This document shows, piece by piece, positions 2,663 through 26,000 of a DNA stretch of 64,000 bases. Source of the DNA: Closterium sp. NIES-65 (taxonomy: Eukaryota; Streptophyta; Zygnematophyceae; Desmidiales; Closteriaceae); NCBI GenBank assembly GCA_948144175.1, contig CANXME010002672.1, positions 1 to 64,000 on the forward strand, written 5' to 3'. Below the pieces are notes generated by a model, which saw only the letters and a list, made by a program, of their open reading frames with translations, did no database searches and had not been told where the DNA came from. The position numbers were made by a program, and so were the translations under genes. Position 1 is the first letter of the stretch; every line of letters starts with the position of its first letter.

Positions 2663-2682
2663 CTTTTGAGGCGCCTCAAAAG
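2663..2682. repeat. 20-bp perfect palindrome, TTTTGAG-GCGC-CTCAAAA class
   Basis: A perfect 20-bp palindrome with core GCGC. The left flank (ccttgatcgcctcgcctgatggtaccatccg type, about 2631-2661) is repeated to the right (2685-2819). It is the first of about fifteen related palindromes in the gene half of the window. Confidence 0.9.
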
Positions 2683-2689
2683 TAGCCTT

Positions 2690-2810
2690 GATCGCGTCGC
2701 CTGGTCTTGATCGCGTCGCCTGGCCTTGATCGCGTCGCCTGGCCTTGATCACGTCGCCTGGCCTTGATCGCGTCGCCTGGCCTTGATCGCGTCGCCTGAT
2801 GGTACCGTAC
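2690..2810. repeat. Minisatellite, 18-bp unit cttgatcgcgtcgcctgg
   Basis: Six or more tandem copies of cttgatcgcgtcgcctgg lie immediately right of the palindrome at 2663-2682. A single older copy with the downstream text (tgatggtaccatccg) lies left of it at about 2630-2660. The palindrome therefore separates two copies of the same segment. Confidence 0.85.
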
Positions 2811-2914
2811 CATCCGACCCCATCCCCTTCTCTTCCTCTTATTCCCGAGGCACCTCAAACCTAGAGGCCTGAAGGGAAGAAAGTTGGACTTCGAGGGAGC
2901 GGGTTTGACCGAGA

Positions 2915-3150
2915 TTGCCTGATTGCACCGCCCCACCCACCCCTTGCCTGATTGCACCACCCCACCCACCCCAACGCCTGATTGCACCGCCCCTCGCCTG
3001 ATTGCACCGCCCTCGCCTGATTGCACCGCCCCACCCACCCCATCGCCTGATTGCACCGCCCCACCCACCCCATCGCCTGATTGCACCGCCCCACCCACCC
3101 ATCGCCTGATTGCACCGCCCCACCCACCCCATCGCCTGATGTACGAGTAG
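2915..3150. repeat. Minisatellite derived from an exon edge
   Basis: Units of about 30 bases (tgattgcaccgccccaccca plus ccccatcgcc) repeat seven to eight times. On the minus strand each begins with a fragment of the start of the neighbouring exon-like segment encoding a Y/C-NQAI motif. The array therefore appears to have been seeded at an intron-exon boundary. Confidence 0.8.
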
Positions 3151-4794: not shown

Positions 4795-4860
4795 GACGGA
4801 AAACAACCTGACGGAGCTACAGCAACCTGACGGAAGGACAGCAATCTAACGGAGGGACGG
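4795..4860. repeat. Short tandem repeat, caacctgacgga units
   Basis: Four to five diverged copies of a 12-20 base unit containing caacctgacgga. No coding potential was seen. Confidence 0.6.
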
Positions 4861-5078
4861 CAACGCGGAACGAAACCAGAGCCAAATGAGACGAATAGGC
4901 TTGCCTCGTATGTCATCATCGCTGCAGACAAAATTATGCCGCCTGACTCCTCGTCCGAGATTACGCAACTAGGGCAAGCTCACATATACTGTGCCAGTTT
5001 TAGAAAAAAAGGGTGCAATTAGGAACGTCACATAGGGTTAGACTTGGGCCGCGAGGAAATATTGCGCCGACGGTGTTA

Positions 5079-5566
5079 GGACGCGTCCCCTGAAGCGGAT
5101 CGGCCGAAGATTGGCCGATCCGCACCGATCGTCACTTCGAGCCTAGGCTCGGTAGAGATCGGTGCCCAGGACTGCGCAACTACGGCGCACCGATATACAG
5201 GTGACAGGCTCGGTAAGGCAGGTTTCGGGATTGAGGTACATCCAACCTGCGACAACAGCTAGGTTGTCGCGAGTAAAAGTCGCACATGGAAATCCACTGT
5301 ATGCGACGTCGTGCAGTAACAATGCGACGACGAGCGAAGGAGATCGATTTTGACTGTCACTCGTGGCGCGAAATTCCACACCGCGCCAAGCAATCTCACG
5401 CTCGATATGTGCACTTCGCTACATCGATTGGTGGTGGAACTTTGTTTACTGTACATTCGTAAACATTGGCGAGACTAGTTACCTTGCTGATTACGACACT
5501 ACAGTTCTACACCCCACGCGCAAAATCGATCTTCCAGCCGATCGATCCGCTTCAGGGGACGCGTCC
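5079..5566. mobile_element. MITE, PIF/Harbinger (Tourist)-like
   Basis: A 24-bp perfect terminal inverted repeat begins GGACGCGTCCCCTGAAGCGG at 5079-5102 and is mirrored at 5543-5566. It is flanked on both sides by the trinucleotide TTA (5076-5078 and 5567-5569). A 3-bp TWA target duplication is the signature of PIF/Harbinger elements. The 488-bp element encodes no transposase. Next to the left repeat an 11-bp inverted repeat (5095-5105 with 5113-5123) forms a subterminal hairpin. Confidence 0.8.
5095..5123. repeat. Subterminal hairpin of the MITE
   Basis: gcggatcggcc at 5095-5105 pairs with ggccgatccgc at 5113-5123 across a 7-base loop. It overlaps the inner part of the left terminal inverted repeat. 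Confidence 0.75.
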
Positions 5567-6836: not shown

Positions 6837-6977
6837 CTTGAGGGTCTAGCTTCACCGTGAGTCTGCAGCCGTTCATTGCGGAGACACAGAGGCCTGTTTT
6901 TGAGGCGCCTATTAACGAACTTGAGGGTCTAGCTTCACCGCGAGTTTGTAGCCGTTCATTGCGGAGGCACAGAGGCC
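6837..6977 (+). repeat. Tandemly duplicated 5' leader of the MINDY gene
   Basis: A 57-58 base segment (cttgagggtctagcttcacc ... cacagaggcc) occurs at 6837-6893 and 6920-6977. The second copy ends directly at the start codon. The copies are separated by a partial palindrome TTTTTGAGGCGCCT at 6897-6910, that is, one arm plus the GCGC core of the TTTTGAG/CTCAAAA family. Confidence 0.8.
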
Positions 6978-7638
6978 ATGGCTACACATCAATCCTCCGC
7001 TGCAGATCCCACTTCCCCAGTGGCGACAGTTGAGACGTCTCATGAGACCATGACAGCGCAACAGTCTTCCGCTGGAACCGCCACTCCCCCTGATCCTTCC
7101 GCCATTCCCTCAGATCCTTCCGCCACTCCTCCTGATCCTTCCGCCTCTTCCCCAGCGGCTTCCGCCACTCCCCCAGATGCTTCCGCCACTCCGTCAGCGC
7201 CTTCCGCCACTCCCCCAGATGCTTCCGCCACTCCGTCAGCGCCTTCCGCCACTCCCCCAGCACCTTCCGCGACTCCTCCAGATCCTTCCGCCATTCCCTC
7301 AGATCCTTCCGCCACTCCCCCAGCGCCTTCCGCCAGTCCCCGAGCGCCGTCTGCTAGTCCTCCAGCGCCTGCTGCGCCGCCGTTGGCGGAGGCAGAGGGA
7401 GGAGGGCAGGGTCAGGATGAGGGGCAGAGTCAGGGGCGAGGGGAGGCGGAGCGGGGCGGAGAGGAGGGGGGAGGAGGAAAAGAGACGCAATCGGGTGGGG
7501 GTCAGGGGCAGGGGCAGAGCGGGGGAGGGGAGACGGCGGAGAGCTGGTACAAGATAAAGCGCGTGGCGTTCCTGGGGCGGCAGCAGGTGCCCATCGTCAT
7601 GCAAAACGACAACGGGCCCTGCCCCCTGCTTGGCATTG
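6978..7638 (+). CDS. MINDY exon 1: low-complexity leader and catalytic Cys box
   Basis: The 220 codons open with tandem PSA(T/S)PP(D/A) repeats, then a Gly/Gln/Glu-rich stretch, then the conserved YKIKRVAFLG...PIVMQNDNGPCPLLGI block. The donor is GCATTG|GTGAGC. A partial echo of the 3' part (about 7692-7768, including a second QNDNGPCP box and a GTAAGC donor) follows; it lacks six bases of the LL codons, so it would not encode the normal box. Confidence 0.85.
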
Positions 7639-10600
7639 GTGAGCATCATTTCACTCCACTCCCAATCTCCCCCTCTGACCGTGACTGAAAGACCTGTGGG
7701 TCGTTCCTGGGGCGGCAGCAGGTGCCTATCGTCATGCAAAACGACAATGGACCCTGCCCCTGGGCATTGGTAAGCTCTTCACCCCCCTGCCCCTTCCTTG
7801 CATTTCTGCTCACCCCCTTACAAACAGCCATCACCCACCCTCCCTCCTTTTACAACATTCCCCCTTGCACTCACCTCATCCCTCCTCTGTTCATTCCCCC
7901 TTCCATCCGTCCCCCTCTTCCTTCTGCTGCTCCGCAACACCATCTCCCTCCGCTCCAGCGCCACTGAGATCTCTTTCGAGTCAACTCAGAGCACGTGTTT
8001 CTATTCCATATTCCCCTCTCACTTCCTTCCGTCGCAGCCAATGTGTGCTGCTCCGCAACGCCATCTCCCTCCGCCCCAGCGCCACCGAGATCTCCCAATC
8101 AGACCTGCTGTCTCTGGTGGCACACCGACTGCTGGACAGCAACACAGGCATGGAGGTATGTGCGTGGAAGGGGGAGGTTTTTGGGTGAGAGTGTGGGGGA
8201 GAGCGTGGGGGAGAGTGTGGGTGAGTGGGTGAGGAAGTAGCATGGCATCTCCCAGTGGGACCTGCTGTCTCTGGTGGCACGCCCACTGCTGGATAGCAAC
8301 ACAGGCATGGACGTATAAGCGTGGAATGGAAAGGGAATGGGGGGGAGAGAGGGAAGAAGGGGCGTTGGAAGGAAGAGCATAGCATCTCCCAGTCAGACTT
8401 GCTGGCTTTAGGTGCCGCACTGTCTGCTGGACAGCAACACAGGCATGGAGGTGCGTGCAAGGGGGAGGGAGGGAAAAAAGGGGATTGGTGGGGACGGGGA
8501 GGGGGAAGAGGGGAAGAGGTGAGACAGGAGAGTCTGGCATTTCTCAGTTGGATCCTACCAGCAGCAGAACGTGGCGGACTGCATGGCTGACTTGAACGTG
8601 ACTTGCTGCTCCTCGCTTTCGCATCCGTCCTTCCTTCCACCCTTCTCAGGGTCGCTCAGCAGAGTACATAAGCAACAGGCAGCAGAACGTGGCAGACTGC
8701 ATGGCTCTGCTTGAACGTGACTCACCCTTTTTCCTCCATTCAACCCCTCGTCAACCTTCCTTTCCTTCCTTCTTTCCTTCCTCTCACCTCTTCAGGGCCG
8801 CTCAGCAGAGTACATAAGCAACAGGCAGCAGAACGTGGCAGACTGCATGGCTCTGCTTGAACGTGACGTGACTCACCCTTTTTCCTCCATTCAACCCCTC
8901 GTCAACCTTCCTTTCCTTCCTTCTTTCCTTCCTCTCACCTCTTCAGGGCCGTTCAGCAGAGTACATAAGCAACAGGCAGCAGAACGTGGCAGACTGCATG
9001 GCTCTGCTGCCGCGCCTCGCCACGGGGATTGACGTCAACGTGCGCTTCACAGGGTAAGCTGGGGCGTGCAGTGCGGTGCAGTGAGATTCAGTGCGGTGCA
9101 CAGGGTGTGATGGGGCATTCAGTGCGGTGCAGTGCGGTGCACAGGGCCGCTCTCCCGGGTATGGGACCAACCGCCAGCAGAACGTGGCAGACTGCATGGC
9201 TCTGCTGCCCCGCCTCGCCACGGGGATTGATGTCAACGTGCGCTTCACAGGGTGAGACGGGGCGTGCAGTGCGGTGCATGGGGTGATACGGGGCGTGCAA
9301 TGCAGTGCTCAGGGTGAGATGGGGCATGCAGTGCGATGTTCAGGGTGAGCTGGGGTGCATACGGCGGTTGAGTGCGGTTCACAGGGTATGAGTGCGATTC
9401 CTTTTGTGTGTGAGGTAAGGATTTTCAGGATGAGCTGAGTTCAGTGACTTCAGCCTTCCCCACTCCCCACTCTCGTTGCGTGTATCTATCCCATCCCCAT
9501 CCACATCCCCCTCCCCCTCCCTCGCCCCCTCCCTCGCCCCCTCCCTCCTCCCCCCCCCTCCCCATCCCCATGCATCAGCATCCACGCGTTTGAGTTCAAG
9601 CCAGAAACAGCCATCTTTGACCTGCTGGACATCAGCCTTCCCCTTCCTTCTCTCTCCTTGCGTTCCCCCATTCCCGTCCATCCCCATCCTACCCGTCCAC
9701 CTGCTAGACATCAGCTTTCCCCTTCCATCCCGTTCCTTGCTTGCTTGCTCCCCCGTCTCATCCCCATGTGTCAGCATCCACGCGTTTGAGTTGACACCAG
9801 AGACAGCCATCTTTGACCTGCTGGACATCATCCTCTCCCCTTTCCCCTCCCCCTCCTCGTTCCCCGTCTCCTTGCGTGTTCCCATCCCCATCCCCATCCC
9901 TCATCCTCTCCCCCTTCCCAGCATCCACGCGTTTGAGTTCACACCAGAGACGGCCATCTTTGACCTGCTGGACATCAGCCTCGTGCATGGCTGGCTGGTG
10001 GACTCGCAGGTATGGTATGGTATGCTGTGACAATCTGGGGTGTGCTATGGTATGGTATGGTATGGTATGGTATGGTATGGTCTGGTATGGTATGGTATGG
10101 TATGGTATGGTATGGTATGGTATGGTATGGTATGGTATGGTATGGTATGGTATGGTATGGTATGGTATGGTATGGTATGGTATGGTACAGCATGCTGCCA
10201 TCTTCGACATGCTTCCTTGTGCATGCATGGATGGCTAGTGGACGCCCAGCCCAGGTATGGTGGGGTGGTATAGTATGACACGGCATGGTGGGGTGGTGTA
10301 GTATGACACGGCATGGTATGGCATCTTCGACCTGCTGGACATCAGCCTCGTGCATGGCTGGCTGGTGGACTCGCAGGTGAGCATGATAGAGCACGGTAAG
10401 CACGGTTCAGCACGGTACAGCACGGTACGGCACGGTAGAGCATGGTACAGCATGCTGCCATCTTCGACCTGCTGGACATCAGCCTCGTGCATGGCTGGCT
10501 GGTAGATGCCCAAAACCCTGTGAACCCTGAACCCTGTGATCCCTAAACCCTGTGAACCCCATGCAGGATTCAGCGACAGCAGCAGCGGTGGGCTCTCTTT

Positions 10601-13600
10601 CCTACAGCTGCATCAAGGAGCGCCTAGTCACCCTGCAGGCCTCCCAAGTGGTGAAACCCCTCTCAACCCCTCTGAAACCCCTGACCTACAGGACTCGGCA
10701 ACAGCAGCAGCAGTGGGCTCCCTCTCCTACAACAGCATCGTGGAGCGCTTAGTCGCTCTGCAGACCTCAGATGGCGTTAAAACCCCTCTCAACCCCTCTA
10801 AACCCTACACCCAGGATTCGGCCACAGCAGCAGCGGTGGGCTCCCTCTCATACAACAGCATCGTGGAGCGCCTCGTTGCTCTGCAGGCCTCAATAGCATC
10901 AAAACCCCTCTCAACCCACCCCAGGACTCGGCCACAGCAGCGGCTGTGGGCTCCCTCTCATACAACAGCATCGTGGAACGCCTCGTTGCCCGGCAGGCCT
11001 CGCAAGTGATTCAAACCCCTCTCAACCCCCCTGAAACCCGCTCCCAAAACAGGACTCGGCCACAGCAGCAGCAGTGGGCTCCCTCTCCTACAACAGCATC
11101 GTGGAGCGCCTAGTCGCCCTGCAGGCCTCCCACCCCGACCTTGCTGCTGCTCTGCTGGGCGGGGGAGGGGGAGGAGGGGGAGGGGGAGGGGGAAGCGGGG
11201 AAGGGGGAGTTGGGGGAGTAGGTGGTCGGGAGGGACTAGGAGAAAGAAGAGGGGGAAGTGGGGATGTGGGAGGTGGAGGGGGAGGTGGGGGGGGAGGTGG
11301 AGGGGAAAAAGGGGGTGGAGAGGGACTAGGAGAAAGAAGAGTGAGAAGTAGGGCCGGGGAAAGAGGGGATGTGGGGAAAGCAGGGAGTGGTGGGCGGGAG
11401 GGTGGGGAAAACCAACAGCGGGGAAAGAAAAAAAGGAGGGGGAAACAGTCCTAGGAGATGAAGGAGATGCAGTGAATGAGGGGGAGGGGGAAGTGACAGC
11501 AACAGCCCTGGCTGAGTCCCTTGCCTCTCTTCTCCTTTCCGAACCTTTACCACTTTCCAATCCGTCACCGGTTTCTGAGCCTCATCCAGCTTCCGAGCCT
11601 GTTCCTGCATCCGAGCCTGCATCGGTTTCCGAGCCTCGTACATCCTCCGAGCCTCTTTCTGCCTCGGCTGCCCGAGCCTGTGCTGCTGCAGAAGAAACAA
11701 GCGGGGCGGAGTGTGAGAGGGATACAGAGGGAGAAAGTGTAGAGAGAAGACAGAAGGGTGGTGAGGGGTTGGAGGGGGTAGAGAGTGGTGCAGAGTCGAG
11801 GCAGGGGGGTGAGGCTGCTTCTGCTCCAGAAAGGCCTGCTGAAGAGAAGGTTAGAAGCGACGAGGAGCAAGTGAGGAGGGAAGAGGAGGGCATAGGGGGA
11901 GGACGAGGAAGGGGGGGGGGAAGATGACGGGAAGGAAGACCAGAAGGAAGGGGAGGAACGCAGGTGTGAGGATGGAGTGGGGAGGAGTGAAGCGGGAGCT
12001 GCACTGGCAGTAGGAAGGGGGGAGCAGGCAGGGGGAGGGGAGATGCGGGATGATGTGCGGGAAGGTGAGTTGGGATGGGGGCTGGGAGGGTTCTCTTTTG
12101 CTTTCTGTTGGAACCAATTATATTTTGGGTGCCTCAAACGATGTGGAGATATGGGGAGGGGAGATGCGGGATAATGTGCGGGAAGGTGAGTTATGTGCGG
12201 GAAGGTGAGTTATGTGCGGGAAGGTGAGTTATGTGCGGGAAGGTGAGTTATGTGCGGGAAGGTGAGTTATGTGCGGGGTCTTAAGAAGTCTCAAGTGGTC
12301 CTGTTTTGCGTCGACTCAAAACACGAGATGCGGGATGATGTGCAGGAAGGTGAGTGATGTGCGGGAAGGTGAGTTATGTGCAGGGTCAGGAGAATTCTCA
12401 AGCGGTCCTTCAGTGAGTTATTCCTAACCAGGTGTGCTTTTTTTAAAGAGGTGACTTTTGAGTCGACTCAAAAGTCATCCGGGAAGGTCAGAAGAATTCT
12501 CAAGCGGTCCTGTTTTGAGTCGACTCAAAACACGAGATGCAGGATGATGTGCGGGAAGGTGAGTCATGTGTCAGTGAGTTAGGTCCTACCAGGTGTGCGG
12601 GAAGGTCAGAAGAATTCTCAAGCGGTCCTTCAGTGAGTTAGGTCCTAACCAGGTGTGCTTTTCTAAACGACTTCAAAGTACACGCATAATAATATTTTTG
12701 CTCTTGTTTTTTTGCTGCTTTCAATCTATCCCGCTCACTCCATTCTTCCATTCTCCACATTCCCCTCTGCCATCTGTGTCCATTCCCCTACCGTCAGCTC
12801 TGCTGCTCTTCACGTTTCTCAACGACACAGCCAGCCAGCTCACTTACCACGGGTAAGGCAAAAGTTCTCTTCCCTATCGCCTCTTTCCTCTCGTTTCAAC
12901 TACATTTCTTGATTCCTCCTCATCCTTGTCGTCTTCCTCACCTTTTGAGTCGACTCAAAAGTCAGCACGGGTAAGGCGAGGGTTCTTTTCCCGTTCGCCT
13001 CTTTCCTCTCGTTTCGACTACATCTCTTGATTCCTCCTCATTAGTGCGACTTTCGAGAATTCTCAAAAGTTCTCTTCCCATTCGCCTCTTCCCTCTTGTT
13101 TCGACTACATTTCTTGATTCCTGATTTGAGTCGACTCAAAACTCGACTCATTACACGCGCTGTTTTGAGTCGACTCAAAACAAGTTCTCTTCCCTGTCGC
13201 CTCTTCCCTCTCGTTTCGACTACATTTCTTGATTCCTCCTCATCCTTGTCGTCTTCCTCGCCTTCCTATTACATCATCCCCTCAATCTTATCTTCGCTTT
13301 CTCCTCATTCCGTCAACCACTGTCAAATCTCGGATTCCTCTCGTCAATCCTTCGAATGAATGTTTCCATATGTATTTCCTTTGCATCACCACATGCCTTC
13401 CATTACGCACCACCACCACGCCCCTCCCTCGTCCCCATCACACCAGCCTCTTCAGCCTACAGGAGGGAGTGAAGGAGAATCAGCTCTGCGTATTCTTCCG
13501 CAATAATCATTTCAGCACTCTCTTTAAGGTGACTCTTTTCACTTATAAAGCTCACAGATACACTCACAAAGCCGTCTCAGGGCTCTGCGTTTTCTTCCGC

Positions 13601-16600
13601 AACAACAATTTCAGCACTCCCTTTTAAGGTGATTCGGTGGTTTTTAAGGTGAATTCGCTCCACCACACCTCTTTCACTGCTGCCCTTGCCTCCTTCAAGT
13701 ATTTGCTTTCACAATACCTCTTCCATCTTCTCTTGAGGTGCCTCATAATATGTTTTCATATTACCTCCCTTTTATTCTCTGAAGCACTGCTCATCCCTCT
13801 GCCTCATCCCTTTCCCACCCACCTCCCTTTCCACATGCTCCCCTCTCCCCCCTCCCCTTGTCCTCAGCGCACCAACCACATATACCTGCTAGTGACAGAT
13901 AAGGGCTACCTCAACCAGCCAAGTCAAATCCACTCCCTTCACCCCTCTCTTCCCTCCTTTCCTCCAATCACCCTCAGTGTACCAACCACATCTACCTGCT
14001 GGTGACGGATCAGGGCCATCTCAACCAACCCGGCGTCATGTGGGAGAGGTGGGATGAGACAACTCACTCCCTTCCTACCTTCAATCCCCGCCTTCTCCCT
14101 GCCATGACCCCCAGAGCACCAACCACATCTAACCCGGCATCGTGTGGGGGAGGCTGGGGCAGGTGGAGGGGGAAAAATCACTCCCTTGCCTCCCTTGCCC
14201 CACTTCCTTCCGTGACCCGTCCCTCCCTCTCCCCACCCACAGCGTACCAACCACATCTACCTGCCGGTCACCGATCAGGTCTATCTGAACCAGCCGGGCA
14301 TTGTGTGGGAGAGGCTGGGGCAGGTGGAGGGAGACAACTCACTCTCCCTTCCCCACCCTGCCACCCTTGTTACCCCCAGCGCACCAGCCACATCTACCTG
14401 CTGGTGACGGATCAGGTCTATCTGAACCAGCCGGCCATTGTGTGGGAGAGGCTGGGGCAGGTGGAGGGAGACAACTCACTCTCCCTTCCCCACCCTGCCA
14501 CCCTTGTTACCCCCAGCGCACCAGCCACATCTACCTGCTGGTGACGGATCAGGGCTATCTGAACCAACCGGGCGTTGTGTGGGAGAGGCTGGGGCAGGTG
14601 GAGGGAGACAACTCACTCTCCCTTCCCCACCCTGCCACCCTTGTTACCCCCAGCGCACCAGCCACATCTACCTGCTGGTGACGGATCAGGGCTATCTGAA
14701 CCAACCGGGTGTCGTGTGGGAGAGGCTGGGGCAGGTGGAGGGCGACAACACGCTCTGTGAGGGGGATTTTACTCCCTCAACTCTCGTCCTCACTTCGCTC
14801 CCTTCGCTCCCTTCTCTTCCGTCTCTCCCACCTCTCCTTGCCTCAGCGCACCAGCCACATCTACCTGCTGGTGACGGATCAGGGCTACCTCAACCAGCCG
14901 GGCGTGGTGTGGGAGAGGCTGGGGCAGGTGGAGGGAGACACCACGCTCTGTGAGGGGGACTTCACTCCCTTTGCTCCTCCGCCGTCTCTGGCCCTGGCTC
15001 ATGGGGGGGAGGGGGCTGCTGCACAGTGGACACACGAGGACGATGCTGCAATTGCCGCTGCTGCCGCTGCTGTGAGTGACACATGCATGTGTGGCTTGGG
15101 GCAGGTGTGAGTATGACCAGCAGCTGTCTTTGTGAGTATAGCTTGGGGCAGGTGGAGGGAGACACCACACTCTGTGAGGGGGACTTCACTCCCTTTGCTC
15201 CTCCACCGTCGCTGGCCCTGAGTCATGACGGCGCTGCTGCTGCACAGTGGACGCATGAGGACGATGCTGCCATTGCCGCCGCTGCCGCTGCTGTGAGTGA
15301 CACATGCATGCAGGCATGCTATAAAAGGTGTATTGACCACGTGTGATCATGTGTGACCACGTGTGACCAAGTGTGACCAAGTGTCACTGGCCCTGACTCA
15401 TGACGGCGCTGCTGCTGCCCAGTGGACGCATGAAGATGATGCTGCCATCGTTGCTGCCGCTGCTGCTGTGAGTAATAGCTTGTAGCTTCCTTCTTGGCTT
15501 GTCATTCGTAATTCGTATACTTCCCTTCCTTCTGCCTTTCACTCCTTTTCTGCATGCCTCTCATTCTGCGTGCTTCTACTGTCAGGGCAGGGAAGGATTG
15601 GAGCTCGTGCAACCCATGCAAGCCACCCAACGCCCTGACTGACACACTAGCCCATGGGGTAGTCTGAAAAGAATCCTGAATGACTTCCCCCCTGCTCTCC
15701 GTGTGCTTTTGAGTCGACTCAAAAGTGCAACCCATGCAAGCCAGCCAACGCCCTGACTGACACACTCGCCCATGGGATAGTCTGAAAGCAATCTTGAATG
15801 AATTCCCCCCTGCTCTCCGTGTGCTTGTCTCTCTCTCTGCCTGCTTCTCCTTTCAGGGCATGGAAGGGTTGGAGCTCGTGCCAGGCATGGACGCATACCA
15901 GTGAGTCTCTCATCCCACACCGTAGGCCTCACTCTCACCACACCATGCAGGCACACATACCTAGGCTTTGCTTTGAAGGGCATGGAAGGATTGGAGCTCG
16001 TGCCTCACACATATGTGCTGCATTCACCGCTCTAGGCCTCACACGTATGTGCTGCATTCACCGCTCTAGGCCTCACACATATGTGCTGCATTCACCGCTC
16101 TAGGCCTCACACATATGTGCTGCATTCACCGCTCTAGGCCTCACACATATGTGCTGCGTTCACCGCTCTAGGCCTCACACATACGTGCTGCATTCACCGC
16201 TCCAAGAAGCTTAGAGGTAGAGGAGCTCGTCCCAGGCATGGACGCATACCAGTGAGTCTCTCAACGCACTCTTCTAACCTCACACGTTCCACCCCGCACC
16301 GCACCGCACCACACCACACCACACCACACCACACCACACCACACCACACCACACCACACCACACCATGCCGCACAGTTACTCAGGCACACACCTGTGCTG
16401 CATCCACGGTTCAGCCAGGCATCAACGTATCACAGTGAGTCATCCCACACACACCTCACGTATCACGCATACCACACCCCACAAGCACTCAATCATGCAT
16501 ATTCCATGCTGCCATGCCAGCTTTAAAATTTAGCTTGCTTTGCGTGGAGGAAGGGCAGCTGCCGGCATGGGGGAAGCAGAGGGAGGGGGTCTGTGAAAAC

Positions 16601-17214
16601 CGAAAACTCTTGTTTTTTTTCCCGGACGCCCTCTTCCCCTTCTCCTGCTACTTCTCCGCGTGATTCCTCTCATCTTTTCTCCTGTTGCTTCGCCTCCCCT
16701 TTCAGATCGCCAACTGGCTCTGATGTCACAGCAGCAGGAGGTGGAGGCAGCAGAGAGGCAGCAGGCAGGGGGGAGAGGATGTGTGAAGAATGCTCCTTGT
16801 CTCATCCCCTTATGCCCTCTTCCCCTTCTCCTGCTACTTCTCTGTGTGATTCCTCTCATCTTTTCTCCTGTTGCTTTGCCTCCCCTTTCGGATATTCAAC
16901 TGGCTCTGATGTCACAGCAGCAGGAGGTGGAGGCAGCAGAGAGGCAGCAGGCAGGGGGGAGGGGATGTGTGAAGAATGTTCCTTGTCTCATCCCCTTATG
17001 CCCTGTTCCCTTCTTCTGCTACTTCTCCTCCCCTTGCACCAGTTCCGACCTTCAACTCGCCCTGATGCTGCAGCAGCAGGAGGTGGAAGCAGCAGAGAGG
17101 CAGCAGGCAGGGGGGGAAGATCAGGGGGAGTACAGCAGGTGCGCAGTGAAGGGGGAAGCGGGGGAGGGGCGTGGGGGCGGGAAGGAGCAGTGGGAGGGGC
17201 AGCAGGGCCTATAG
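6978..17214 (+). CDS. MINDY-type ubiquitin carboxyl-terminal hydrolase, 10 exons
   Basis: This is a homologue of the MINDY (FAM63) cysteine deubiquitinases, which trim Lys48-linked polyubiquitin in the cytosol. Proposed exons: 6978-7638, 8038-8155, 8947-9053 (alternative 9145-9251), 9922-10009, 11053-12064, 12798-12852, 13456-13528, 14847-15071, 15857-15900 and 17043-17214 (TAG stop), about 850 residues. Exon 1 is a Pro/Ala/Ser-rich leader followed by YKIKRVAFLG and the catalytic box QNDNGPCPLL, whose Cys is the family nucleophile. Later exons give SQLTYHG, CVFFRNNHFST (the family's catalytic His), HIYLLVTDQGYLNQP and a C-terminal LALM.QQQ segment matching the family's LALSLQQQ ubiquitin-binding end. 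Splice phases agree at all junctions except exon 1/2, where one base seems missing after AATGTG. Exon 5 has a Gly- and Glu-rich insert with an unresolved frame change. The start has a good context (gccATGGC). Confidence 0.9.
7912..8450 (+). repeat. MINDY exon 2 cluster: one full copy, three partial echoes
   Basis: The full exon is 8038-8155 (LLRNAISLRPSATEIS...LLDSNTGME; donor GAG|GTATGT). A 5' echo without an acceptor lies at about 7912-7970. Two 3' echoes, each ending in a donor-like GTATAA or GTGCGT, lie at about 8240-8312 and 8378-8451. A degenerate palindrome (7974-7990) lies between the first echo and the true exon. The expected codon series GTG-CTG-CTG-CTC appears as gtgtgctgctc, one base short. 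Confidence 0.8.
8545..9251 (+). repeat. MINDY exon 3 cluster with two splice-competent 107-bp copies
   Basis: Five copies of the segment encoding RQQNVADCMALL are present. Two are full length: 8947-9053 (GRSAEYISNRQQ...) and 9145-9251 (GRSPGYGTNRQQ...). Both are 107 nt with AG acceptors and GG|GTAAGC or GG|GTGAGA donors. Using both would shift the frame, so they would have to be alternatives. Truncated copies lie at about 8545-8600, 8647-8720 and 8796-8870. Confidence 0.8.
9586..10510 (+). repeat. MINDY exon 4 cluster, about six copies
   Basis: The full exon is 9922-10009, encoding IHAFEFTPETAIFDLLDISL and continuing VHGWLVDSQ. Upstream 5' echoes are at about 9588-9645 and 9773-9831. Downstream 3' echoes are at about 10196-10258, 10319-10377 (with donor CAG|GTGAGC) and 10452-10510. 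Upstream copies keep the exon start, downstream copies keep the exon end, as expected of in-place tandem duplication with breakpoints inside the exon. Confidence 0.8.
10010..10187 (+). repeat. (TATGG)n microsatellite starting at a 5' splice site
   Basis: About 30 copies of the pentamer tatgg begin exactly at the donor of MINDY exon 4 (CAG|GTATGG), with one interruption at about 10024-10045 and one tctgg variant. The array repeats the donor hexamer itself, so about 30 GTATG sequences follow the exon. Confidence 0.9.
10561..11140 (+). repeat. MINDY exon 5 start, five tandem copies
   Basis: A segment encoding DSATAAAVGSLSYNSIVERL followed by VALQAS recurs at about 10564-10645, 10691-10770, 10815-10893, 10924-11006 and 11053-11132. 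Each copy begins after an AG-like acceptor. Only the last continues into the rest of exon 5 (HPDLAAALLGGGG...). Spacing is 110-130 bp and the intron text between copies (aaacccctctcaacccct) is also repeated. Confidence 0.85.
11053..12064 (+). CDS. MINDY exon 5, low-complexity insert
   Basis: The exon starts with DSATAAAVGSLSYNSIVERL and ends with MRDDVREG at the donor GAAG|GTGAGT (phase 1, matching the next exon). Both ends are in the same frame. Between them that frame has a stop at 11452-11454, and a second frame (11472-11927) carries tandem SEP(x)PAS repeats and an acidic stretch. Either a small intron or two compensating homopolymer indels (G-runs near 11163-11340 and 11909-11920) must be invoked. 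MINDY proteins vary in this part, so the insert is plausible but unproven. Confidence 0.5.
12304..12321. repeat. Palindrome, TCGA core, one mismatch
   Basis: TTTTGCGTCGACTCAAAA, one pair off perfect. To its right begins a new copy of gagatgcgggatgatgtgc, already present at 12040-12060 and 12157. Confidence 0.85.
12452..12477. repeat. 26-bp perfect palindrome, TCGA core
   Basis: The longest member of the family: the 18-bp core TTTTGAGTCGACTCAAAA is extended by four further paired bases on each side. It separates two copies of a segment containing gaattctcaagcggtcct (left about 12391, right about 12491). Confidence 0.95.
12511..12532. repeat. 22-bp perfect palindrome, TCGA core
   Basis: The 18-bp core is extended by TG and CA. 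It is followed immediately by another copy of the exon 5 end (acgagatgcaggatgatgtg). Confidence 0.95.
12798..12852 (+). CDS. MINDY exon 6 (SQLTYHG)
   Basis: The acceptor is CGTCAG and the donor CACGG|GTAAGG. It encodes ALLLFTFLNDTASQLTYHG, matching the family's conserved ASQLTYHGL segment. Phase 1 in, phase 2 out, consistent with both neighbours. Confidence 0.85.
12942..12961. repeat. 20-bp perfect palindrome, TCGA core
   Basis: Perfect TTTTGAG-TCGA-CTCAAAA with C and G outer pairs, at the junction of copies 1 and 2 of the tandem intron unit. Confidence 0.95.
13049..13070. repeat. 22-bp palindrome, AATT core, one mismatched pair
   Basis: ACTTTCGAG-AATT-CTCAAAAGT. Same arms as the TCGA members but a different self-complementary core. 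It lies at the junction of copies 2 and 3. Confidence 0.9.
13125..13182. repeat. Two palindromes with TCGA core
   Basis: A 16-bp perfect palindrome (13125-13140) and a 22-bp perfect palindrome (13161-13182) lie 20 bases apart between copies 3 and 4 of the tandem intron unit. Confidence 0.9.
13456..13528 (+). CDS. MINDY exon 7, catalytic His segment
   Basis: The acceptor CTCTTCAG gives the phase needed after exon 6 (GG|C). It encodes GLQEGVKENQLCVFFRNNHF and then STLFK; the FFRNNHFST motif carries the family's catalytic His. The donor is TTTAAG|GTGACT. A 3' echo (LCVFFRNNNF, His changed to Asn) ends at a GTGATT donor at about 13577-13627. Confidence 0.85.
13866..15467 (+). repeat. MINDY exon 8 cluster: eight upstream and two downstream partial copies
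   Basis: The full exon is 14847-15071 (RTSHIYLLVTDQGYLNQPGV, then WERLGQVEGD..., WTHEDDAAIAAAAAAV; donor GCT|GTGAGT). Partial 5' copies begin near 13867, 13978, 14110, 14243, 14379, 14516 and 14653; the last four are spaced exactly 137 bp and nearly identical. The 3' end is echoed at about 15140-15291 and 15384-15467, each with a GTGAGT donor. Confidence 0.85.
15607..15826 (+). repeat. 101-bp tandem duplication with a palindrome at its junction
   Basis: The segment gtgcaacccatgcaagcc ... gctctccgtgtgctt occurs at 15607-15708 and again at 15725-15826. The two copies are joined by the 20-bp perfect palindrome 15706-15725. This is the clearest case in which the palindrome sits exactly on the duplication boundary. 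Confidence 0.95.
15706..15725. repeat. 20-bp perfect palindrome, TCGA core
   Basis: CTTTTGAGTCGACTCAAAAG at the boundary of the 101-bp tandem duplication described above. Confidence 0.95.
15857..15900 (+). CDS. MINDY exon 9, with echoes
   Basis: It encodes GMEGLELVPGMDAYQ-type sequence between TTTCAG and CCA|GTGAGT, phase 0 in and phase 2 out. A 3' echo with the same donor is at about 16213-16252 and a 5' echo at about 15979-16003. Confidence 0.75.
16000..16205 (+). repeat. 34-bp minisatellite, six copies
   Basis: The unit tctaggcctcacacatatgt-gctgcattcaccgc repeats at exactly 34-bp spacing (16031, 16065, 16099, 16133, 16167). It lies between exon 9 and its 3' echo. Confidence 0.9.
16296..16368 (+). 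repeat. (CACAC)n-type microsatellite
   Basis: Pentamers caccg and cacac/accac repeat about 14 times shortly after the exon 9 echo donor. Confidence 0.85.
16700..17214 (+). CDS. MINDY exon 10 with two upstream echoes and TAG stop
   Basis: The final exon 17043-17214 (CACCAG acceptor) encodes SDLQLALMLQQQEVEAAERQ and a Gly/Glu-rich tail ending in TAG. The LALMLQQQ part matches the LALSLQQQ segment near the C terminus of MINDY-1/2. Two near-identical upstream copies begin near 16706 and 16888 (about 180-bp and 155-bp spacing); only the first has an AG acceptor. Confidence 0.8.
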
Positions 17215-17550
17215 ATGTGCATCAGTTAGGGGGGAGGGGGAGGGGGAGGGGGCGCGGGGGGAGGGGGGAGGGACGAGCAGTGTCAGGAGTGAGGAGCGAC
17301 GGTGGTGGTGGTGGTGGGAGGGAGAGCAGCAGTGGGTGGGGCAGCACGTGGGAAGCAGCGACTGGGCTCATATTTGTAAGACATGTGGGATTAATGGGGT
17401 GAGGGGAGTGGGAGTCGGGAGGCTGGGGAGGGAGGAGGGAGAGGAGGGGAAGAGGAGGTGAGAAGGACCAGAGGTGTGACGAGTATGCTTCATCTGGGGT
17501 CATGTATGGGAGTCAAGTTCGAGAGTTCTCAATTAAAAGTGACATAAAAA

Positions 17551-17562
17551 TGAGAATTCTCA
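17551..17562. repeat. 12-bp palindrome, AATT core
   Basis: TGAGAATTCTCA, with a degenerate sister (tcgagagttctcaa) at about 17518-17531. It lies between two copies of agaggtgtga-gagtatg-tcatctgg (17470 and 17574). Confidence 0.8.
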
Positions 17563-17722
17563 AACGAGGGACGAGAGGTGTGAGGAGTATGGATCATCTG
17601 GACTACTCATGCTTGAAATGCAGCAAACCACAGGCTCATCAGAGAACATATACCTGGGTCCTGGACGCATTGCTATGATGAAGCTAAAGAAAGTTCATCT
17701 AGATTGCTTATTAAGAGGTACA

Positions 17723-17738
17723 TTTGAGGCGCCTCAAA
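17723..17738. repeat. 16-bp palindrome, GCGC core
   Basis: TTTGAGGCGCCTCAAA. Like the member at 2663-2682 it is followed by agtag. No flanking duplication was found, so this is an exception to the junction rule. Confidence 0.85.
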
Positions 17739-19275
17739 AGTAGACTCCAGAAAACCACCGGTACAGTCCTCCCCCTTGCTTCCCTTCCCATGCATCTCCC
17801 CTGGTTCATTTATCACACCCTACTGCCCCCCCTCCCTGCCTCCCTCCCTCTCTACCTCCCTCTCTCCTCCTTCCCTTACTCTCCCCTGGTCCCCTCCTTT
17901 TCTTCAACCCCCCAACCTTCACCAAGCAGGGGAGCACCCAACCAAGATCCCCCTCGCGCCGCACCACACCGCATCACGCCACTTCCTCCCCGCCAACCCC
18001 TCAGGGCAGGGGGCAGCGCAGGGGTGGGTCAACGCAGAGTGACTGCTCTCTCATGTGATACACTGTTGCTGGGAAAGGGAGGATATTTTGACGTATCAAG
18101 ATTCACTGCTTCTGGCCGAGGGGAGGGGAGTGGGGCAGAACGAGTGCCCTTCACTTCTTTCCAATCCTGCTCTCGTGTGACTCTCAAGGTGTTTATGCCC
18201 TTACCATTGCTACCAGCTGAATGTGCAATTTATGTGAAGCATGTAAATTGTGACTACGTTGCATCCCCTCGTACAAGCAATTAATATAGAAGTCACTTTA
18301 GGAAAGGTTGTATGATGGCATTCTGGTTTGAGTTTTTGATGCTACAACCGGGCGAGGCAGAAGGGCCGATGCAGGCCATACGTTTCCTTCTTTTACTACA
18401 AAGTAGAAAACTTTCTCTAGATTACATGGAAAAGAAACAGTCGAAGAGGAGGATATGACGACCTTGAGGGCCGACGTTGTTGCTCACGAACTGGCGGCTG
18501 GAAAGCACATCAAACATCCAGGTCGCACCCCTCAAGAAATTCGCTGCGCTGGAACCGCCAGTCGCACACCTTCGCAATCACCTGCCCGCTTTTCCGCCAA
18601 ACGTCCGCCTACTCCCAAAGCAGCCCAGCCTCCGCACTCTCCGCTTCAGTGTACACGCGCACCTCAACTTGGAGTCTCCACTCCAGCAAAGCAAACCTGC
18701 GGATTCCGCGCAGACCTGCGCCCATCCCTGCGCTAGCTTTCTGCGCTCTCAGCCTGTGCAAAGCGCGCCAAGCAGCCCAGGGGCAGGTGTGAGGTGCGAG
18801 AGCCCGGATTGGTTGGTTGGGAGGAGCTGGTAATCCCAAGACCCGCCTAGAGTTGGTGGAATTTCTTAGCTCGGCGGAATCCAGGGACATTTTCTTTCTG
18901 CAGGGCGTTTTGTTGCAATATCTCCATAGATCAGTAACGCTGATGTCTATAATGCAGTTTAGATCGTGAAGCTTAGGAGGCGGACACAATAGAGTTCTAG
19001 GATTGGATATGCGTGCATTCACTGACTCAAGCCGATATTGTGTGAGCAATCCGGTTGTTACCGTATCGCATTAGTTTAAGAAGCTTCTGGCCTCAGGCCC
19101 ATATGCCCATTAGTTGATCCGCAATATGCCCTCTTTTTCTTCTAAAGCTTCGCTTAGATTCTGCAAGCTATAGCCTTGGACGATTCTACCAATCCAGTTC
19201 GACGTGGAATAGAAGAATAAAGTAATTTATCGCGCTATTAGTTCGTTTCCCTGATTCGGCGAAGATGGAGCAAGT

Positions 19276-19465
19276 AGACGAAGTGGTCGGCAATGTCACG
19301 TCATGGTTCCGAAGGTATGCGTTTTCGTGATCAGACGCGCGAGATATACATTGATGATAAATTTTGAGTCGACTAAAAAACGTCCGAGCGGACGAGGTGG
19401 TCGGCAATGTCACGTCATTATTCCAAAGGTATGAACTTTTCATGATTAGACACGCATGATTTGAA
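19276..19465. repeat. Two-copy duplication around a palindrome
   Basis: gacgaagtggtcggcaatgt-cacgtcat at 19276-19350 recurs as gacgaggtggtcggcaatgt-cacgtcat at 19390-19465. Between them lies TTTTGAGTCGACTAAAAA (19362-19379), one mismatch from the palindrome consensus. Confidence 0.9.
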
Positions 19466-20055: not shown

Positions 20056-23000
20056 GTACGTAGTCCCTGGTTACGTACCGGCGTTACGTATCGGGCAATA
20101 CTGCCGTGTTATCACCTCCCCACTCCCCCCAGCTCCCCAACCCCCCCTTCCTCCTCCATCCCCCTCCCTCTCTTCCCCCCCTTTCCGCTTCCCCTCCCCT
20201 CCTCCTTTTCCCCATGTCTCGCATCAAAATTCTCATTCCACTCCCCCACTCCCGGGTTTCCCCGTTTCTCCGAACTCCCTTCCAACCCCGTCATATCCCG
20301 TTCCCCTTGCGCGCGCTCTTCCCACCCCCCCGGATCCCCGTTCCCGCTTTCTCCGCTCCCCGCTTCCCCAGCCCCCCGGGTACGACCACCGCGCGCCCCA
20401 GTTGCAGGACCAGCGGAGCGACGGGGGAAGCCAGGGGCAGGGGTATGGCGGGCGATATGACGACGAGCGGGGCAGCCGATATGGCTATGACGACTATGCT
20501 CGGGTGCGTTTGTGAGATGTTATGGTTATGATGGGGGAGGCCAGGGACAGGGGTATGGGGGGGGGTATGTCGATGAGAGGGGCAGCCGATATGGCTATGA
20601 CGACTATGCTCGGGTGCGTTTGTGAGATGTTATGGTTATGATGGGGGAGGCCAGGGACAGGGGTATGGGGGGGGGTATGTCGATGAGAGGGGCAGCCGAT
20701 ATGGCTATGACGACTATGCACGGGTGCGTTTGTGAGATGTTATGGTTATGATGGGGGAGGCCAGGGACAGGGGTATGGGGGGGGGTATGTCGATGAGAGG
20801 GGCAGCCGATATGGCTATGACGACTATGCTCGGGTGCGTTTGTGAGATGTTATGGTTATGATGGGGGAGGCCAGGGACAGGGGTATGGGGGGGGGTATGT
20901 CGATGAGAGGGGCAGCCGATATGGCTATGACGACTATGCTCGGGTGCGTTTTGGAGACACTTTTGAGAACTCAGAAGGGGTATGGCGGGGGGTATGAGGG
21001 GGGGTATGGCGAAGGGTATGAGGCAGGGGTATGGCGGGCGATATGACGACGAGCGGGGGAGCCGCTATGGCTATGACGACTATGCGCGGGTGCGTGTTTA
21101 GGCAATATGGGCATGATTGTTTTGCCCAGGCTCAGCGTATTGCACATAGAAATGAAATCGATTGTCGTTAGTGTTGGCAGGTCTTTGTAACGAATTTTTA
21201 ACGGATCCTCATGTGCGGTTGCTATGTTATGGCTGATCTCGAATTGTTGTTCTGGGATGCATGACCTGCCATGGTGTATCTGATTCTTGGTGGGCTATTG
21301 TTGTGGATCCATGGCATGGCATGGCATGGCATGGCATGGCATGTCATGTCATGGCATGTGATGGTGTCATGGAGTGGCATGGCATGGCGTGGCGTGGCAT
21401 GACATGGCGTGGCGTGGCATGGCATGGCATGGCATGGCGTGGCATGGCATGGCATGGCATGGCATGGCATGGCATGGCATGGCGTGGCATGAATGTATGG
21501 ACTTGCGGATTGCATGTATGTTTGGGGTATTGGCTCGAAATGGCTGGTTCAAAATGGCTGGCTTGATTGGGTGCAGGATCGACCATATGACCGAGAGAAG
21601 GAAGAGGAGGAGGCGCGGGAGAGGGAGAGGGCGGAGCGCATACGACGAGAGGAGGAAGAGGAGAGAGGTGCGTGATGAAGTGCGGTGCGGATGAGTGGTG
21701 AGGTGAAGTGGGTGAAATTGCATGCATGAATGGCTTGGTTGGGTGCGGATTGGACTTAACGACCGAGAGAAGGAAGAGGAGGAGGAGTGGGAGGAGGAGA
21801 GGGCGGAACGCATACGACGAGAGGAGGAGGAGGAGGAGGAGGAGGAGGAGGAGGAGGAGGAGGAGGAGGAGGAGGAGGAGGAGGAGGAGGAGGAGGAGGA
21901 GGAGGAGGAGGAGGAGAGAGGTGCGTGGTGAAGGCCTGATGAGTGGTGAGGTGAGTGAGATGAGTCGGGTGCAATAGCACGCACGAGCAAACACGCACAG
22001 ACGCAACACAACGAAGGCACATGCATGTGCACATGCCACGGGCATCCTTATTGATAGAAAATCATCACCGATCATACATAAATGGGAGACGGAAAGGGTG
22101 GCTTCACCTGCTTCTTCTGAAACCATCTCACGCCCTGTATTCCCTTCGTTTTCTCTCACTGGAACCCCTCACACTGCCACGTCCCTGCCTTCCCTTCAGC
22201 CCGCCAAAAGGCAGAGGAGGAGGCAGCAGCAGAGGCCGAAGCAGCAGCGGCAGCTGCAGCAGCGGCAGCAGCAGCAGCATCGCCACCACCGGACCTGCTA
22301 TCCATGGAAGATGATCTGCTGGGCCTCGGGACAGACGCAGGGCCGGGGGCTCTGGTGCTCTACAGTGCTCCTAATGCGGATGACCTCATTTCCAAGGCGT
22401 TTCAGCAAGAGATCAGCCTTCTGGTGAGTGGGACGGGATCTCGAAATGGTGAGGGAGGGCGATTTACTGGGGCTGGGCACAAATGCAGGGCCGGGCGCTC
22501 TGGTGCTTTACATTACAGTGCTCCCACTGCACCTCCTCAGGGTCTCTCCTGACATTGACACGGGCATATCAGAGGCGTCACTCCTGGAGAAGTTGAATTC
22601 AGTGGCTCCAAGGCAGGCAAACGGGGAGGTCGACTTGGTGTCCCTGCTGCTAACGTGTCTCTCCACTTTACCCCCCTCCACCCACCCCAACCACTACCAA
22701 CCGCAGGACATTGACACTGGTACGTCAGAGGCGTCTCTCCAAGCAGGCCAACGGGGGGAGGTCGACCTGCTGGCCTTCCGTTGCATCCCTTCCCACCGAC
22801 CCCACCCACCCCATTACACACCCCAACCACTACCAACCGCAGGACATTGACACTGGCACGTCAGAGGCATCTCTCCTGGAGAAGGTGAACTCGGTGGCTC
22901 CCAAGCAGCCCAACGGGGAGGTCGACCTGCTCGCTCTGGAGGATGGACCTGTGCCCGCTGCTGCTATTCAGTTTCTTGTTTTCTTTCACCCACCCACCCA

Positions 23001-26000
23001 CCACATCCACACCACCTCCCACCCCAGGACATTGACACTGGCACTTCGGAAGCCTCTTTCCTAGAGAAGGTGAACTCGGTAGCTCCCAAGCAGCCCAACG
23101 GGGAGGTCGACTTGCTGGCCCTGCTGTAATGTGTCTCTCCACTTACCACCCTCCACCCACCCCAACCACCTCCCATTCACCAACCTCAGGACATTGACAC
23201 TAGCACGTCAGAGGCATCTCTCCTGGAGAAGGTGAATTCAGTGGCTCCAAAGCAGGCGAATGGGGAGGTCGATCTGCTGGCTCTGGTGGACGGACCTGTG
23301 CCCGCTGGTGCCGCTGCTGCTGCTGGAGGAGGATTGGGAGGGGGGTTGGATGCGACGAGTGGGGCGCTGGTGCTGGTGACACCCATGAAGGGATTCCACG
23401 CCACGTGAGTGATTGTGCTATGAAGTGATTCGGGTTTATCTTTTGTCATTGCCTCTTTGAACGGACCTGTGCCTCGCTGCTGCTGCTGCCACCGCCACCG
23501 CCACTGCTGCTTTCTCACCCCTTCGTGTCCTTTGCCTACCCTCTCGCCCTGCCCCCGTGCAGACCCACAAGGCACGGCATATGCAGGGCGTGTGAGCGGA
23601 CTATTCGATTCGGGGAGGTACCTGATTGCTCTGAACCGCCCCTGTCATGGCCCTATACCCATTCTCCCTACCCCTACCCCTGTACCCCTTCCCCTTCACC
23701 TGCAGACCCACAAGGCACGGCATATGTGGTGCTTGTGAGCGGACTATCGATTCCGGGAGGTACCTGATTGCTCTGAACCGTGACTGGCATGCCGCCTGCT
23801 TCAAGTGCTGCCACTGCCGCCTGCCCATCACTGAGATGCAGGTGAGAGAGCAGAGTAAGGGAGAGGGTTTGTGTGAGTGAGCGAGGGGGCGACAGAGTGA
23901 GTAAGTGAGTGAGTGGTGTAAAGAGTTGAAAGCTGGGGCCCTAGATGATTGCTCTGAACCGTGACTGGCATGCTGCCTGCTTCAAGTGCTGCCACTGCTG
24001 CCTGCCCATCACTGAAATACAGGTGAGAGAGTGGGGGAGGGAGTGAGAGAGCGAGTCATGTGAATGGGATGAAACATGGGTCACCACCTGATTGCCCTGA
24101 ACCGCCACTGGTGACTGCCAACCAATCACTGAAAGGCAGGTGGGAGGGAGTGGAAAAAGAGAGAGGCTGTGAGAGTGAGGGAGTGAGAGGGTTGAGAGAG
24201 AGCGAGTGACGTTGAGCAGTCGTGTGGTTCTGTGTTGTTCTTTCGAAGTGTCCTCACCAGCTACCTTTGAACGGCTGATCATTCGTGATGTTCCTGATAC
24301 AATACGTTTTTTAAGTTATTCTCTTATTTTGCTGCTCTTTTCACTGCTTTCCTGTCCCTTGCAGTGCTCTGTGAAGGAAGGTGATACTTACCACACCGAG
24401 TGCTACCGCCAGCTCTTCCACCCCAAATGCTACGTCTGCGACACTTATGTAAGTGCCTATCATAAATGATTTTTTTTTTTTAGCCGCCTTGATATGTATG
24501 GCCTTAAGAGGAACGCCTGGGACCCTTATGTAAGCACCATCCACGAAAACCTTCCCTTGTGTTCCTCTGTAATCTCCACAGATCGCCCCCAGCGAGTCTG
24601 GCATGGTCGAGTATCGACTCAACGACCTGTGGCACGCCAAGCACTGCGCCAAGCACAGCCCGTCCTCTGATGGCTCGCCCCTCTGCCACCTTTTGAGTCG
24701 ACTCAAAAGCAGACTCGCCCCTCTGCCACCTACCCCTTGTTGTTGCCATATATCCCCATATGTATGCTCCCTTGTGCCCTTCCGCAGATCGCCAACAGCG
24801 AGTCTGGCATGGTGGGGTACTGCCTTACCACCTGTGGCACGCCAAGCACCTTACCACCTGTGGCACGCCAAGCACCTTACCACCTGTGGCACGCCAAGCA
24901 CCTTACCACCTGTGGCACGCCAAGCACCTTACCACCTGTCACCGTGTGTGTGTGTATGACCCCCTCCACTGTGTGATTCTTTCAGATTGCCCCCAGCGAG
25001 TCTGGCATGGTTGAATATCGCCTCAACGACCTGTGGCACGCCAAGCACTGCGCCAAGCACAGCCCAACCACGGATGGCTCGCCCCTCTGTTCCGCCTGCA
25101 CTCGCCTCCAGGTGCCATCAGTCAGTCAGTCAATCAGTCAGTCGGTCAGACAGTCAGTCAGTCAGTCAGTCAGTCGGTCGGTCAGTCAGTCAGTCAATGG
25201 AAGGAACTGAAGGGTCTCTCCCACTTATTGCACAAGCACTGCGCCAAGCACAGCCCCTCCTCTGATAATCTGATTGCTCCTCTCTGCTCCGCCTGCACTC
25301 GCCTTCAGGTGCAGTCAGTCAATAAATCGGTCAGTCAGTCAGCCAGTCAGTCAGTCAGTAGGACTCAACAGAACTCTATCAGTCACTCCCACTAATTGCC
25401 CAAGCACTGCGCCAAGCACAGCCCAACCACGGATGGCTCGCCCCTCTGCTCCGCCTGCACTCGCCTCCAGGTGCTGTCAGTCAATAAGTCAGTCGGTCAG
25501 TCAGCACAGCTAAACAGTTATTGCTCCTCTCTGCACAAATTGCGCTAAGCACAGCCCCTTCACAGATGCCTCGCCTCTCTGCGCCTCATGACGTCTCCTC
25601 TCCCGTTTTCTTCCTCCTCCAACCCACCACATGCACGATGGTCGACACAGGCGGTAACCGCACCCTCTAGAGAGTCAGCGCTCGCCCCACTCCCTCATCC
25701 TCATAACACTCCCATGGTCCCACCTCACCTCATGGCCCTCTCTCCCCTTGCCTCTCTACCACCCTCCCCTCCCCTGCCCCCCACACCCTCCACTCCTTCC
25801 GCTTCCCTCCTGCAGCCCACCACATGCACAATGGTGGACATTGGCGGTAACCGCACGCTCTGCCCCGATTGTAACACCTGCTCCTGGCCCTCCCCTCCTG
25901 GCTCCGCGCTCTCCGCCCTCACCTCCTCCTCCTCCTCCTCCTCGCTGGGGACTCTAGTAGTAGAGGCCTCTGAATGTGCCCCTATTTTTGCCTCTGTGCT

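Follow-up and report, generated by a model that had tools for sequence, protein, structure and literature searches.

We propose that a family of short palindromes in the genome of Closterium, a unicellular green alga near the land plants, are probably scars of break joining, in which broken ends were tailed on a short template and joined via a self-complementary tetranucleotide, and we put the probability of this reading at roughly 0.55. The palindromes came to light in a window made up of the first 64,000 nucleotides of contig C2374 (160,467 bases) in an 874-Mb assembly of 2,400 contigs, where an earlier reading of the letters alone (the sequence-only reading) had described constant arms, a varying core and duplicated flanks. 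The signature, TTTTGAGNNNNCTCAAAA, is genuine and very abundant. The genome-wide enrichment check that this reading had suggested counted 30,327 exact sites and 4 for the reversed-pattern control, with about 1 expected from mononucleotide composition, and the window holds 16 matches at ≤3 mismatches where 100 dinucleotide shuffles gave a mean of 1.66 and a maximum of 5. All the palindromes that had been listed for the window (at 2663, 12304, 12452, 12511, 12942, 13049, 13125, 13161, 15706, 17723, 19362 and 24690) are present in it. Because the genome holds large near-identical duplicates (window region 15300–17900 is present three times at 99%, and locus L021 likewise three times), many of the 30,327 sites must be copies of one another, and independent events are fewer than the site count, by our rough estimate perhaps two- to threefold. 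Our searches of open-access PubMed Central (PMC) papers turned up no earlier description of the signature; viral contigs held no exact TTTTGAGTCGACTCAAAA, plasmids gave no near match to window 12100–13300, and the window had no Rfam match at gathering scores.

The anatomy of the sites was read from a sample of 253,375 bases, comprising the window and 19 further stretches, most of them picked for containing matches, with 57 exact sites in all. Perfect palindromes of at least 14 bp number 88 in this sample, of which 67 belong to the family and the other 21 compare with a shuffled count of 20. The 67 have only four centres, TCGA (35), ACGT (16), GCGC (13) and AATT (3), and with one arm mismatch allowed these four account for 80 of 86 cores, which upholds the earlier claim of a varying but self-complementary core and adds to it a fourth core, ACGT, that is common outside the window. 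The arms TTTTGAG/CTCAAAA are present as described but form only the inner part of longer units. The palindrome often extends past 18 bases, as GGTGAC...GTCACC at a number of TCGA sites and as CACGTG plus 12 variable bases at a number of ACGT sites. It is built from a pair of longer half-units that meet head to head, each starting and ending with the same tetranucleotide: TCGA-GGTGAC-TTTTGAG-TCGA, with a 17-nt period, and in the ACGT class ACGT-GN12-TTTTGAG-ACGT, with a 24-nt period. The pattern ACGTGN12TTTTGAGACGTCTCAAA occurs 597 + 624 times genome-wide (reversed control 0), and the 99 matches listed contain at least 50 different 12-mers, with position 6 being A in 50 of 50 and position 7 being G in 46 of 50 among the matches listed.

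Half-units are rarely seen by themselves, with only 221 occurrences of GGTGACTTTTGAGTCGA genome-wide lacking palindromic completion. Lone TTTTGAG/CTCAAAA half sites number 45 in 253 kb against about 35 expected, near chance, which gives no support to the idea of snap-back synthesis from a CTCAAAA half-site. The arms, judged by their match to the consensus arm, are equal at 12 of 29 loci and unequal at 17 of 29, and either arm may be the shorter while the centre is retained. Decayed copies of the palindrome are also present, in graded stages of decay; among the half or degenerate members noted earlier, those at 6897, 7974 and 17551 are plausible decayed copies, whereas 20960 is a weak half and 26930 is unconvincing.

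The second main feature is the duplication of the flanking DNA. Once sites lying less than 60 bp from another were removed (94 reduced to 54 isolated sites), adjoining direct repeats, defined by gaps of ≤30 bases between the 18-mer and the repeat copies on both sides and a score of ≥12, were found at 44 of 54 isolated sites and 29 of the 32 exact ones, against 117 of 324 nearby control points (36%; Fisher p ~4e-10) and 24% of 150 points anywhere in the sample. The sequence-only reading had seen duplicated flanks nearly everywhere, and the link is strong but, given those controls, not exclusive. A repeat-score test against random points (1 of 48 above the 95% level) had to be replaced by the adjoining-repeat test, since tandem repeats are everywhere and make such a comparison useless. 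Repeat length, searched in 150-bp flanks, ranged from 16 to 129 bp with a median of 53 at 39 loci (score ≥14, four array or low-complexity loci dropped). The repeat ends (86 ends, 43 loci) show no sequence motif or consensus, and an endonuclease with a target motif was rejected on this ground.

Small tandem duplication is rampant in this genome, whose gene-rich parts are full of it, even where there are no palindromes (L016–L035 and the window), and many of the repeats lie 100–160 bp apart. At L024:6170–6290 the spacer enclosed by a 31-bp direct repeat, GGCAACGCC...GGCGTTGCC, is likewise hairpin-like but does not belong to the palindrome family. Other hairpin fillers between palindrome-free repeats were considered and set aside, as 2 of 37 hand-picked spacers were self-complementary at p 0.05, about what chance gives.

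Unfilled counterparts of the sites were sought by joining the flanks of 44 loci and comparing them with the sample. Six loci had a crossing match elsewhere, of which two lie in arrays (L019:9041 and window 12304) and were not used. Locus L028:165 has two paralogues at 84–90% identity (L027:9759–9827 and L027:9923–9998) with a single 16-bp target and no insert, and L022:972 has a diverged (72%) empty paralogue on L018 with a single 20-bp target and no insert. Hence an unfilled site lacks both the insert and the duplication. Looser comparisons, in which gaps occur close to the site, are those for L026:3956, L030:4728, L021:5108 and L032:5750, and that for L029:2265 never crossed the site; for L021:1300 there was no unfilled copy, with full-length matches in all three copies.

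Some loci carry chains of half-units. Several of the uncompleted GGTGACTTTTGAGTCGA matches listed are spaced exactly 17 bases apart, and among 12 short stretches that were read there are head-to-tail GGTGACTTTTGAGTCGA chains that reach the palindromic centre, on one arm or the other. Chains of 17 nt with direct repeats outside them are found on C975, C1616 and C277, and on C794 two partial units with no palindromic centre lie between identical 40-bp repeats. An arm of the ACGT class starts and ends with ACGT, and therefore 24-nt chains are expected; a pattern with the 24-nt spacing fixed in it matched seven times (reversed control 0), three of the matches lying 24 bases apart on C1819, and 24-nt chains with direct repeats outside occur on C1819 and C1557. 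At L049 (C1557) the 55-bp repeats are 100% identical and the left arm has two units and the right arm one; a single 12-mer is common to all three, and the first unit starts within the tetranucleotide. At L050 (C532), where the 39-bp repeats are also 100% identical, the left arm carries one unit of the 24-nt type and the right arm 12-nt units, a pattern consistent with a tail that realigned within the left arm's unit; an AAGTG variant in the right arm matches the end of the left-arm 12-mer. Flanking repeats were present at 10 of 16 short stretches, with three more having only unit or longer-array repeats and three having none within 161 bases.

The junctions between insert and target were also informative. 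At TCGA-class loci with an arm matching the 17-nt unit, we asked whether the adjoining target base continues the unit in register, a kind of test that formed part of the evidence reported for telomerase at mammalian breaks (PMC2246262). In-register microhomology of at least one base was found at 18 of 29 junctions where 6.6 were expected, of at least two bases at 9 of 29 (expected 1.4), and of at least three bases at 4 of 29 (expected 0.4).

These features set five requirements for any mechanism. As the unit is not local, a constant source must act in trans, which bears on the sequence-only reading's proposal of hairpin-ended repair: its notion of a repair scar may be right, but the constant sequence would have to be supplied from elsewhere. 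As the chain period equals the distance between the two copies of the tetranucleotide, copying ends there and can restart there. One variable stretch can recur in the two arms of a locus, which calls for tailing of both its sides on a shared template; a centre that is self-complementary in nearly all cases places the joining at the tetranucleotide; and the duplicated target calls for a staggered break. Tailing of two ends on one template followed by annealing satisfies all five.

Taking the anatomy, the empty sites and the unit chains as observed, we infer the template, the enzyme, its polarity and the order of the steps as follows. A staggered double-strand break would leave complementary overhangs of about 16–130 nt, a range suggested by the duplications, and their fill-in would duplicate the overhang. 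Both 3′ ends would be extended on one short template in the fashion of telomerase, primed by a few in-register bases, and copying would halt at the template boundary to leave a tail ending in TTTTGAG plus TCGA, ACGT, GCGC or AATT. Where the unit also opens with its class tetranucleotide, as it does for TCGA and ACGT, a tail could realign and undergo a further round of extension, producing 17-nt or 24-nt chains. The two tails would then anneal via the self-complementary tetranucleotide, and filling and ligation would yield a palindrome whose arms differ in length or unit number. The simplest candidate enzyme would be a reverse transcriptase that resembles telomerase but uses a non-telomeric template RNA, and a Pol theta-type DNA polymerase working on a DNA or RNA template might leave similar scars. 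The template RNA is predicted to contain UCGACUCAAAAGUCACCUCGA or ACGUCUCAAAA-N12-CACGU, with a 5′ template boundary. The CST/Pol alpha-primase machinery and telomerase both work on 3′ overhangs at telomeres, which makes a telomerase-like enzyme attractive. We entertain, only tentatively and at less than even odds, the more specific idea that Closterium has a dedicated break-tailing machine made of a telomerase-like reverse transcriptase and a family of short non-telomeric template RNAs, in which the terminal tetranucleotide would serve both as realignment site and as the sticky end that welds the tailed ends. Such a machine, if real, would have left about 30,000 scars, counting those copied by large duplications, as well as duplicated segments through genes.

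Several points weigh against break joining by templated tails. No template gene was found: a search for ACGT-class units with A or T as the next base returned 12 matches, all with T, and these fit simple C-to-T decay. The 50 different 12-nt stretches would have to come from many templates or from one that changes fast. Ten of the 54 isolated sites have no adjoining repeat, and the raw repeat score exceeds the 95% level of random points at only 2 of 54, an excess that is small because long arrays dominate the null. Decay of the palindrome and divergence of its repeats are weakly correlated (Spearman p 0.08; one-sided rank test p 0.05). In the microhomology test 21 of 50 junctions were dropped as their arm did not match the 17-nt consensus, and L028:335 and L028:414 are array artefacts, without which the counts for at least one, two and three bases become 16, 7 and 2 of 27 (the expectations being for 29). 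Unit chains are seldom found, and slippage between the two tetranucleotide copies after insertion might in principle produce them, although the chains flanked by 100% identical repeats and the mixed chain at L050 argue against slippage. The 24-nt spacing of the seven matches was imposed by the search pattern, and two of these sites are probably copies of one; L036 and L039 appear to be duplicates that go back to a single event.

The alternative that survives best is a very short palindromic mobile element, resembling a miniature inverted-repeat transposable element (MITE) or a retroposon, with variable and unusual target duplications and ends trimmed at insertion, as the sequence-only reading had in part envisaged. 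The outcome fits, with filled and empty sites, a duplicated target, tens of thousands of copies, subfamilies and decayed old copies. We nevertheless consider it unlikely, as the fixed-length duplication of transposons and MITEs is replaced here by lengths of 16–129 bp at 39 loci with no target motif, and neither of the LINE/SINE traits was seen, there being no endonuclease motif at the duplication ends and no constant end with truncation opposite. It is also at odds with the unequal arms (17 of 29), the chains of half-units and the insert of L045, which has no palindromic centre, and no larger element was seen in the sample, where lone half sites are near chance, no transposase search having been made. 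An element of this kind, palindromic, 18–54 bp long, present in about 30,000 copies and with long variable duplications, would still be new to us.

Rather improbable in our judgement is that genomic palindromes themselves act as DNA templates, by Pol theta-like insertion or template switching, so that the scars spread themselves. In-register microhomology and realignment-like chains would both follow, and the unit families could be lineages of copies; a genomic palindrome, however, gives no cause to halt at its centre, yet the chains restart at the tetranucleotide, and Pol theta insertions do not usually draw on a fixed source far away. There is very little to recommend the capture of palindromic double-stranded cellular fragments as filler at staggered breaks, with trimming: filler capture is known in plant break repair, the two arm lengths are independent and fill-in gives the duplication, but head-to-tail chains and in-register microhomology are left unexplained and no source fragment is known. 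An assembly, adapter or library artefact, suggested by the restriction sites that the cores form, can practically be dismissed, given four cores, longer unit families and subfamilies, graded decay, paralogous empty sites, and 99% matches that at two loci span the insert in three separate genomic copies (as judged by coordinates only); PacBio assemblies are reported for several strains of this Closterium complex (PMC10407611).

The sites within the window are collected in Table 1. The duplications that had been described at 15607/15725, 24674/24714 and 6837/6920 and the unit array at 12865–13265 were all found, and the absence of a flanking duplication at 17723 (17722 in our coordinates) was borne out. 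The units at 12848–13264 had been termed intron units, a label that is taken over here unchecked.

Table 1. Palindrome loci of the window, in window coordinates
Feature	Coordinates	Strand	Repeats and details
Palindrome CTTTTGAGGCGCCTCAAAAG, core GCGC, next to a 19-bp tandem array	2663–2682	.	Direct repeats 2625–2648/2699–2722
Decayed GCGC-core palindrome, 6898–6915, in a 25-bp insert	6837–6977	.	58-bp repeats 6837–6894/6920–6977, 93% identity
Decayed palindrome, 7974–7991	7925–8094	.	49-bp direct repeats 7925–7973/8046–8094
Palindrome 12304–12321, core TCGA, one mismatch	12231–12409	.	72-bp repeats 12231–12302/12338–12409
Perfect 26-bp palindrome TGACTTTTGAGTCGACTCAAAAGTCA	12452–12477	.	
Palindrome TGTTTTGAGTCGACTCAAAACA	12511–12532	.	
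Four repeat units with palindromes between	12848–13264	.	12943–12960 TCGA; 13051–13068 AATT; 13124–13141 and 13163–13180 TCGA
Palindrome TTTTGAGTCGACTCAAAA exactly between 100-bp direct repeats	15607–15824	.	15607–15706/15725–15824
GCGC-core palindrome, one mismatch	17722–17739	.	No flanking duplication detectable
Palindrome 19362–19379, TCGA, one mismatch	19277–19455	.	64/65-bp repeats 19277–19340/19391–19455
Palindrome 24691–24708 (TCGA) plus five extra bases	24674–24730	.	17-bp repeats 24674–24690/24714–24730

Region 6978–15107 of the window contains pieces matching a MINDY deubiquitinase, with several palindromes between them; the piece at 6978–7685 scores just below the curated cut-off and those at 13903–14541 and 14700–15107 above it, and 137-bp tandem units lie at 14235–14756. 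A frame at 28594–28959 matches a DA1-like domain. At 36055–48113 a Ty3/gypsy element (gag, protease, reverse transcriptase-integrase-chromodomain) is interrupted by a Ty1/copia polymerase frame (38861–44764), and the Gypsy polymerase at 45540–48113 matches Closterium proteins at 91–94% across nearly its full length. The sequence-only reading was correct that this retrotransposon half is free of sites: it has no TTTTGAGNNNNCTCAAAA match at ≤3 mismatches, the last in the window being at 30273 with 3 mismatches. The probability of such a gap is about 2e-4 if 12 sites are independent, which they are not, and young retroelements or chromatin may be its cause.

If the palindromes are indeed scars of templated tailing, they represent a form of break joining in which a template-encoded sticky end is written on both ends, and a readable record of each break, its overhang length and its age. 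As Cas9 knockouts are reported in this Closterium species complex (PMC5736609), the break-tailing reading is directly testable. It would also connect end joining with the addition of repeats of the telomere type, and might partly account for the many small tandem duplications that the genes carry.

REP/REPIN sequences, organellar GC clusters and double-hairpin elements are short, palindromic and of high copy number, like the Closterium palindromes, but we know of no palindromic mobile element tied to long variable target duplications or to head-to-tail half-units. In DRT2-type systems, the product is not known to be joined into chromosomes and short repeats at both ends of the template guide the jump. 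The likeness to these reverse transcriptases, described as copying one RNA template region repeatedly into a repetitive product, goes with the difference that they are bacterial antiphage systems (PMC12039810). In mammalian cells, breaks with complementary 3′ overhangs are reported to be duplicated via CST-guided Pol alpha-primase fill-in, so that, as in Closterium, the overhang of a staggered break is directly duplicated (PMC8355091); the trait is seen here in the adjoining repeats of 44 of 54 sites and in clean single-copy empty sites at two loci. The Closterium junctions differ in their constant templated insert, none being mentioned in the abstract of that study (PMC8355091).

Also close are the mammalian interstitial telomeric sequences, reported to be put in at double-strand breaks by telomerase, in which short tandem units added in trans, in-register microhomology and empty orthologous sites are found together (PMC2246262). 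Closterium has the same head-to-tail units, in chains at some loci, and the same in-register microhomology. Telomeric insertion as such was rejected, as the insert units differ from TTTAGGG, the telomere repeat here, of which (TTTAGGG)4 occurs 2,267 + 788 times, with one at a contig start among the matches listed; TTTAGGG arrays at C131:130405–130677 and C64:136584–142495 (the latter interrupted) are possibly interstitial or contig-end telomere sequence. Unlike the mammalian sequences, the Closterium unit is non-telomeric, comes in several families and occupies about 30,000 sites, and both ends appear to have been tailed and joined head to head via the self-complementary tetranucleotide. Duplication, which is the rule in Closterium, is occasional in mammals, at 6 of 130 rodent and 4 of 25 primate loci in Table 1 of that report (PMC2246262). 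Since the defining features of the nearest known families that were tested are not those of the Closterium sites, we set the signature apart as new.

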